Of a stretch of DNA of 64,000 bases, positions 30,400 to 32,028 are shown one piece after another. The DNA is from Synergistaceae bacterium (GTDB lineage Bacteria > Synergistota > Synergistia > Synergistales > Acetomicrobiaceae). Position 1 is the stretch's first letter, and each line of letters opens with the position of its first letter. The notes under the pieces were generated by a model that worked only from the letters and a program-made list of their open reading frames with translations, did no database searches and was not told the DNA's origin. The translations under genes and the position numbers were made by a program. The DNA lies in the NCBI GenBank assembly GCA_012518015.1, contig JAAYTM010000084.1:1-64000 (forward strand). The letters run 5' to 3'.

Positions 30400-31545
30400 G
30401 TGTTTGAAAGTGTTGCGAAAACTTTATTAAAAGAATGCGAAGGAAGATCGATGCTAATGTCCTTTTACATCGATTGTGACAGGAGTCGTAGATCCGTCAA
30501 GGAAATTTCGATTGATCTGAAGAACCTTCAAAAAAAGGCCATTGAAGAGGAAGCTCTTTTTTGCGGAGAGAGCGATTGTAAACAATATAGTGAAAAAATC
30601 ACTTTTATTTTAAACAGGCTCAACGAGGAACTGGTTCACGGAGGCTTAGGTGAGGCCAAGGGTATCGCTTGCTTTGTTGATCTGCAGGGCGATTATTATC
30701 GATTTGTAGAACTTCCAACTCCAGTAAAAAATCAGGTGAAGTTCTCGGATCATCCCTTCTTGGCGCCACTCATAGAAACTCTATGCCCTCACAAGCTTAC
30801 CCTCGTGGCAGTTGTAGAGGCAAGGAGAGCAAATTTCTTCCGAGTGTATGCAAGTACTGTAGACAAACTTTTGACCTTAGAGGAAGACGTGCCTCCTAAA
30901 GTAAAATCGGCTGGTTGGTATGGCCTTGAAGAGACTCGGATTAAAAGGCATGTGGAGAATCACGTTAAAAACCATCTTAAAAATGTAGCAGCTACTCTTA
31001 GGGCACTCTACGAAGATGAAGATTATTCCTTGATATTAGTTGGGGGAAACTCAAATTATGCCCTCGTTGTAGCAGACCTCATCAAGGAGATCGTAACTAA
31101 CATTCCTGTCGATGTCTTAGCAGAATTAGGCATAACTGATCAACCCCATGTAGTCGTGGAGGCTGTGACGTCTTATGCCTTAAAGTCCTTTGTGGTAGAG
31201 AGCTCAAAGCTAGTTGAAGAGATAATAACCGAATACGAGAAAGGTGGACTGGCAGTTGCTGGGCTCAGGGGCGTCGTTTATGCCTCCAATCTTTTCGCTG
31301 TGCATCAACTTCTAATCGACGAATATGAGCCCGTTGCGGGAAAACAGTGTCAATCGTGTGGTGCTTTGGGGGTCGATGAAGTTGAATGTCCTTTATGCCA
31401 TGGCGAGATGGGAGAGATTGAAGATTTGATTGATCTTTTAATCTACAAAACGTTGCGAGATAATGGGGACGTATTGGTAATAGGTGGACAATCTCCTTTA
31501 AGAGAATATGATGGCATAGGTGCTTCACTTCGCTTTGCTGTGTGA
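30400..31545 (+). CDS. eRF1/Vms1-like (bacterial archaeo-eukaryotic release factor family) protein with zinc ribbon
   Basis: eRF1-like domain 2/3 organisation: GWYGLEETRIKRHVENHVKNHLKNVA, GLRGVVYASNLFAVHQLLIDE, CQSCG...CPLC ribbon, GIGASLRF end; GTG at 30400 behind GGAGGTG. Confidence 0.72.
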   Translation: MFESVAKTLLKECEGRSMLMSFYIDCDRSRRSVKEISIDLKNLQKKAIEEEALFCGESDCKQYSEKITFILNRLNEELVHGGLGEAKGIACFVDLQGDYYRFVELPTPVKNQVKFSDHPFLAPLIETLCPHKLTLVAVVEARRANFFRVYASTVDKLLTLEEDVPPKVKSAGWYGLEETRIKRHVENHVKNHLKNVAATLRALYEDEDYSLILVGGNSNYALVVADLIKEIVTNIPVDVLAELGITDQPHVVVEAVTSYALKSFVVESSKLVEEIITEYEKGGLAVAGLRGVVYASNLFAVHQLLIDEYEPVAGKQCQSCGALGVDEVECPLCHGEMGEIEDLIDLLIYKTLRDNGDVLVIGGQSPLREYDGIGASLRFAV

Positions 31546-31553
31546 GCTGTATT

Positions 31554-31600
31554 AAATCAAGTCGAGCAGAAAGGTGTTTTTTCTGCTCGACTTGATTTTT
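31554..31600 (+). terminator. Terminator after the eRF1-like gene
   Basis: AAATCAAGTCGAGCAGAAA / TTTCTGCTCGACTTGATTT 19-bp stem with T tract. Confidence 0.88.
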
Positions 31601-31693
31601 GTAAAAGCGACTTCATTTACGCTTCTCTTTTCGACTTGAACTTTTTAGGCGTTAATTATAGCTAAAGTTTAGTCAAAACTAAAAGCCTTTGTG

Positions 31694-31722
31694 TTGATCG
31701 ATGTGCTCATTGTATTTATACT
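31694..31722 (+). promoter_or_regulatory. Candidate promoter for the S4-domain gene and eno
   Basis: TTGATC - 17 nt - TATACT. Confidence 0.5.
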
Positions 31723-31755
31723 CATGCAGGAGATCACGACAGGGGAAATGAATTT

Positions 31756-32028
31756 ATGAGGATAGATAAGTACTTAAAAATTTCGCGAATGGTGAAAAGA
31801 CGCACTGTAGCACAGGAGATGATACAGGCTGGTGTGGTAAGGCTTAACGGTAGACCTATAAAGCCTTCTTCTGTCGTTCGGGTGGGCGATGTCATCGAAA
31901 TAGCTTTCCCGAGAAGAATTTTAAAGGTTGAGGTTCTTTGTGACGATGAAATTATGGTGAAAAAGGGGAAAGAAGCTTACGCAATTTTAGAGGAACGCTC
32001 AGTAAGTTTAGACGATTCTACAATATAG
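31756..32028 (+). CDS. S4-domain RNA-binding protein, RqcP/YabO-like
   Basis: [51 protein letters not shown]. Confidence 0.88.

Follow-up and report, generated by a model that had tools for sequence, protein, structure and literature searches.

A probable Balon-like ribosome hibernation factor of baeRF family 10 encoded between rpoD and rqcP in Synergistota

Overview

The window, i.e., the whole stretch of 64,000 nucleotides that was analysed, comes from an Acetomicrobium-type Synergistota genome (1.75 Mb, 190 contigs) and contains, between rpoD and rqcP, a gene for a three-domain protein of baeRF family 10 whose fold is nearest to that of Balon. With a probability of about 0.78, this gene encodes a Balon-like hibernation factor acting in the A site of the ribosome. 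Balon sits in the A site together with EF-Tu and harbors neither NIKS nor GGQ (PMC10901736). With this assignment, some Synergistota would have Balon-type hibernation, encoded at an inherited locus downstream of the gene for the primary sigma factor. An earlier note on this DNA had left open a peptidyl-tRNA hydrolase or a hibernation factor; the best sequence and fold matches, which are to Balon, favor the latter, while the Vms1-like or hydrolase option is disfavored since the catalytic Gln is absent. The features of the locus are as follows.

29056..30291, + strand: rpoD, encoding the primary sigma factor with regions 1.1 to 4, overlapping the end of dnaG and probably in one transcription unit with baeRF10
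30400..31545, + strand: baeRF family 10/Balon-like gene (baeRF10), 381 aa, GTG start, with N-terminal, middle and C-terminal eRF1-type domains
30898..30951, + strand: loop replacing the eRF1 GGQ loop (residues 167-184, ..SAGWYGLEETRIKRH), with low model confidence at residues 167-179
31348..31398, + strand: zinc ribbon CxxC-X9-CxxC made up of C317, C320, C330 and C333, an insertion within the Pelota-like C-terminal domain
31554..31598, + strand: probable terminator, a perfect 19-bp inverted repeat 3' of baeRF10
31694..31722, + strand: promoter-like TTGATC-17-TATACT ahead of rqcP
31756..32028, + strand: rqcP-type S4-domain gene, 90 aa, with Arg2, Asp4 and K14-R15-R16
32052-33344: enolase gene, downstream of the S4-domain gene

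The baeRF10 gene is present as a single copy in the genome. Its mechanically defined reading frame begins at ATG 30385 (386 aa), a possible start, but GTG 30400 is favored because it is preceded by a GGAGGTG ribosome-binding site and because relatives start with GTG. The corresponding length agrees with the 381-aa protein that the earlier note had placed right after rpoD, and the motifs it had listed, namely a GWYGLEETRIKRHVENHVKNHLKN stretch, a CxxC..CxxC ribbon and a GIGASLRF end, can all be found in the protein.

Family and Fold

Among Pfam profiles, baeRF_family10 (PF18854; PMC6514570) matches the protein with 58.8 bits (E 9.7e-16), well over its curated gathering cut-off of 27.1. The matches to eRF1_2, eRF1_3 and acVLRF1 are below the respective cut-offs (for acVLRF1, E 0.0014 and 19.3 bits vs 27.1). 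In NCBIfam, the Balon families MSMEG_1130 (2e-16) and Rv2629 (2e-14) rank first, followed by aRF1 (3e-10). Considering that these scores are far under the equivalog cut-offs (59.9 bits vs 480 for the MSMEG_1130 type, 53.6 vs 320 for the Rv2629 type), the protein is a relative rather than an orthologue of either type. When a profile of 15 orthologues was compared with the PDB, the top match was Balon Msmeg1130 over the full length (E 4.6e-24, residues 15-374 aligned to 19-375), ahead of Rv2629 (8e-8), aRF1 (2e-6) and Balon from P. urativorans (3.1e-4).

The AlphaFold2 model of the protein (pLDDT 88.4, pTM 0.84) is confident save for residues 167-179. Foldseek also ranks Balon first (E 7.8e-24), with TM scores of 0.75-0.79 to the ribosome-bound structures 8v9j and 8v9l; the alignment to 8v9l (TM 0.77/0.79 across 388 columns) covers three aeRF1-like domains at full length. 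P. urativorans Balon and aRF1/eRF1 come next, and Pelota is lower (TM about 0.2-0.4). Identity to experimentally tested proteins is about 20% among the Foldseek matches, which makes these relationships remote only. Taken together, the profile and Foldseek rankings identify an eRF1-fold protein that is nearest to Balon. Both the profile search and the structural comparison that the earlier note had proposed thus recover the eRF1 fold, the latter with Balon ahead of aRF1/eRF1, and its eRF1-like reading is borne out far beyond chance.

With Balon, Msmeg1130 and Rv2629, the protein shares the three-domain eRF1 fold, the lack of NIKS and of a middle-domain GGQ, and an insert at the matching place of the C-terminal domain. 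It differs from Balon by an intact zinc ribbon where Balon has a β-hairpin and by its GWYGLEE loop. The locus differs as well. HPF/RaiA is the commonest neighbor of Balon, whereas baeRF10 lies between rpoD and rqcP and not beside HPF/RaiA, which speaks against the Balon reading. With the VLRF1 and Vms1-ANKZF1 release factors, the protein shares the superfamily; however, the acVLRF1 match is weaker than those to baeRF10 or Balon, and the VLRF1-specific N-terminal extension was not seen in the window protein. Membership of the Vms1/VLRF1 group was rejected on the basis of the profile score under the cut-off and of a loop with neither GGxSQ nor an equivalent Gln.

The Loop at the GGQ Position

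It has been considered that baeRF family 10, which has a conserved Gln, might hydrolyze peptidyl-tRNA (Burroughs and Aravind, PMC6514570). Among the Desulfobacterota members retrieved in this analysis, GGW[SA]Q.RYQRH is a frequent form of the loop. In the window protein and its kin, the loop reads GWYGLEE.RI.RH, which is three residues longer, and Glu178 occupies the aligned position of the putative catalytic Gln of the GGWSQ-type members. This Glu is invariant in 15/15 Synergistota members, as are G172, G175, E177, R180 and R183. The protein therefore belongs to the family by profile and descent but is not of the Gln type. With Glu178 in place of Gln while the rest of the loop is strongly conserved, peptidyl-tRNA hydrolysis is disfavored. 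As a point against the Balon-like reading, the unusual conservation of the loop suggests a role at the peptidyl-transferase center that would be more specific than that of a passive plug.

Glu-type loops can also be found in records from Atribacteria, KSB1, Calditrichota, Syntrophobacteraceae and others. In a tree computed without the loop columns, the Synergistota set is a group of its own with full support, separate from a second group that holds the other Glu-type proteins; a single origin of the Glu-type loop is neither established nor rejected by the AU test (p 0.36). The family can thus be split into two loop types, a Gln type that is possibly catalytic and a Glu type that is probably not. 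Since Glu-type loops are spread over several phyla, the question of which baeRF proteins hydrolyze and which only plug becomes testable with a few point mutants. Loop diversity is larger still among the Desulfobacterota loci L111-L139, where GGW[SA]Q.RYQRH, TDHMRSQ..FQRR, RMGLS.Q.FQRH, GQGR.GD and the Glu type were observed; such loop types may differ in catalytic ability.

Regarding other motifs, NIKS is absent from the window protein. The sole GGQ (residue 362) was discarded as a catalytic motif, since it is located in the wrong domain, the C-terminal one, where relatives carry GRP or GGE. The HP motif of Balon is located at the decoding center (PMC10901736). Residues 117-119 of the Acetomicrobium proteins form a DHP, a candidate counterpart whose His is not retained outside this family.

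The Zinc Ribbon

The four cysteines of the ribbon are invariant in 15/15 Synergistota members, and the aligned site of Msmeg1130 in the profile alignment is an insert without cysteines. The ribbon is also harbored by all 28 Desulfobacterota baeRF10 proteins with a recovered C-terminus and by 10 of 13 other relatives, Asp replacing the last Cys in the remaining three. It is therefore usual in baeRF10 and not special to the window genome; the idea of a lineage-unique trait was abandoned in view of the Desulfobacterota count. Many baeRF families have a two-strand insert at the ribbon site, possibly a degenerate ribbon (Burroughs and Aravind, PMC6514570), and Balon reaches EF-Tu via a β-hairpin insertion in its C-terminal domain (PMC10901736). 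An intact ribbon at the site of the EF-Tu hairpin of Balon fits the published idea of a degenerate ribbon, and the ribbon may be the equivalent of this hairpin, with the same EF-Tu-related task.

In the proposed Balon-like mode of action, the eRF1-like N-terminal domain would bind 70S ribosomes, idle or stalled, at their A site, the putatively non-hydrolytic loop GWYGLEETRIKRH would be placed near the peptidyl-transferase center without chain release, and the C-terminal domain with its zinc ribbon (the β-hairpin in Balon) would contact EF-Tu or the stalk side.

Genomic Context and Distribution

Of the 61 genomes of the Synergistota order, all encode RqcP, 58 encode RqcH and 15 encode baeRF10; in a phylum-wide draw, baeRF10 is present in 16/151. 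Wherever baeRF10 occurs in the order, it adjoins rqcP (15/15 genomes), so the adjacency noticed earlier in the single window is conserved. The upstream neighbor in these 15 genomes is rpoD, or dnaG where rpoD was uncalled, or a contig end (G001). The genes belong to a conserved block, hppA-dnaG-rpoD-[baeRF10]-rqcP-eno-rex-yajC-secD-secF. Of 20 relatives without baeRF10 that were examined, most keep the block with rqcP directly behind rpoD or dnaG; in a few, it is rearranged or broken at contig ends (e.g., G007, G016, G045, G057). Enolase is absent from the otherwise conserved rqcP-eno-rex block in several Synergistota genomes (L062, L070, L071, L074, L075, L078).

On the tree of flanking genes, the presence of baeRF10 is scattered and needs three changes, while in the tree of the baeRF10 protein the Synergistota members, all at the same locus, form one supported group. 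Most simply, the gene would have entered the rpoD-rqcP interval once within the Synergistota order and been lost several times since, and the proximity to rqcP would then mark an old insertion point. Most likely, the adjacency of baeRF10 and rqcP stems from this old conserved gene block and not from joint work.

Outside the Synergistota, no S4 gene was found near baeRF10 at any of 43 loci (flanks of 1-6 kb). At five Atribacteria loci (L089, L090, L095, L096, L098), a Glu-type baeRF10 lies behind similarly sized genes in a repeated order; in L090, the upstream genes encode a nucleoside phosphorylase, a small multidrug-export-type protein and an IF-2B-type protein.

Transcription Signals

The terminator and separate promoter that the earlier note had seen between baeRF10 and rqcP were both recovered, as a probable terminator and a promoter-like element. 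The hairpin starting at 31554 was missed by a simple terminator scan and was found by folding together with a repeat search; the 81-nt region folds with -33.5 kcal/mol (z = -6.8). The corresponding spacers of the five further Acetomicrobium-group genomes hold similar hairpins, so that all six genomes have one. The TATACT element is located 30-39 bp upstream of rqcP in three families (f1, f5, f6) and at a distance of 14 bp in f2, with a -35-like partner of 3-4/6 matches where room allows; G004 has TATAAT 8 bp before rqcP in its place. In the spacers of L021-L029, TATACT is kept across families with considerably diverged flanking proteins.

The spacers between rpoD and baeRF10 are short (35-108 bp). 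An inverted repeat was not found in that of the window, and convincing promoter hexamer pairs are absent from all of them. Given the terminator in Acetomicrobium and the conserved TATACT between the genes, baeRF10 resembles the tail of a dnaG-rpoD transcription unit. It thus appears to be the last gene of this unit and would be made as such, and rqcP appears to have its own promoter. Co-transcription of baeRF10 and rqcP was rejected on account of the six hairpins and the conserved TATACT. The position linked to rpoD could tie expression of baeRF10 to the core transcription machinery. A hibernation-type gene apparently last behind dnaG and rpoD is an unusual setting.

RqcP, RQC Genes, and Alternative Functions

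RqcP proteins are recognized by Arg2, Asp4 and K14-R15-R16 within at most 110 residues from Arg2 (PMC11317155), a rule which the S4 protein satisfies with 89 residues, the motif claim covering the window copy alone. The protein matches YabO/RqcP better than Hsp15 in the PDB (2.4e-13 vs 2.9e-6), so its earlier assignment to the RqcP/YabO type holds and an Hsp15-type paralog is not indicated. It shares the Arg2, Asp4 and KRR motif and a length of 90 aa with YabO of B. subtilis. In Bacillus, rqcP (yabO) belongs to the yab operon, while in the window it follows rpoD. RqcH is encoded elsewhere in the genome (NFACT_N match on G000:C129, E 2.4e-48, with the Asp-Arg motif), and an HPF/RaiA-type hibernation factor is encoded on another contig (G000:C181:5423-5692). 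An RqcH-RqcP pair without YlmH has been reported for 84% of Synergistota (PMC11317155).

The earlier note had suggested a link of the protein to RQC. In one reading of this kind, the protein would be a dedicated termination factor, a Vms1-like peptidyl-tRNA hydrolase freeing the Ala-tailed chains made by RqcH and RqcP. Such a factor has so far not been known for bacterial RQC (PMC11317155), and the adjacency to rqcP in all 15 genomes, the motif-intact RqcP and RqcH in the same genome and the strong conservation of the loop are in keeping with it. However, 46/61 relatives have RqcP, and mostly RqcH, without baeRF10, the putative catalytic Gln is replaced by Glu, the S4 gene is missing from the 43 loci outside the Synergistota, the two genes are separated by the terminator in Acetomicrobium and by the promoter of rqcP, and block synteny accounts for the adjacency. 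Pth releases RQC chains in B. subtilis. It is encoded in 58/61 genomes of the order, including that of the window; being nearly universal, it is not replaced by baeRF10, and the role of a Pth substitute was dismissed. A hydrolase of this kind is thus quite unlikely, and the functional link drawn by the earlier note is not upheld by the persistence of RqcP and RqcH without baeRF10, by the synteny or by the 0/43 loci elsewhere; a link to RQC is possible, though weakly suggested. A variant in which the Glu-loop, zinc-ribbon proteins of Synergistota would join RqcH and RqcP as a termination factor dedicated to bacterial RQC, via recruitment or activation of Pth or by an unusual hydrolysis, is very unlikely; if true, it would account for why the loop is invariant and why the adjacency holds in 15/15 genomes.

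The protein might also enter stalled ribosomes and promote their splitting in the manner of Dom34/Pelota, a non-catalytic rescue role distinct from hibernation. The superfamily is shared, the loop is apparently non-catalytic, and such a role has been weighed for baeRF proteins (Burroughs and Aravind, PMC6514570). The full fold is nevertheless closer to Balon (TM 0.77) than to Pelota, and Balon homologues inhibit translation and do not split ribosomes (PMC10901736), which makes this role unlikely. Balon-like hibernation remains the preferred reading also when compared with that of a ribosome-independent or degenerate member with a different RNA-binding role. The remote similarity to tested proteins leaves some room for the latter, which is nonetheless highly improbable: the three domains, the helix arginines R180 and R183 and the ribbon have been kept under selection across families.
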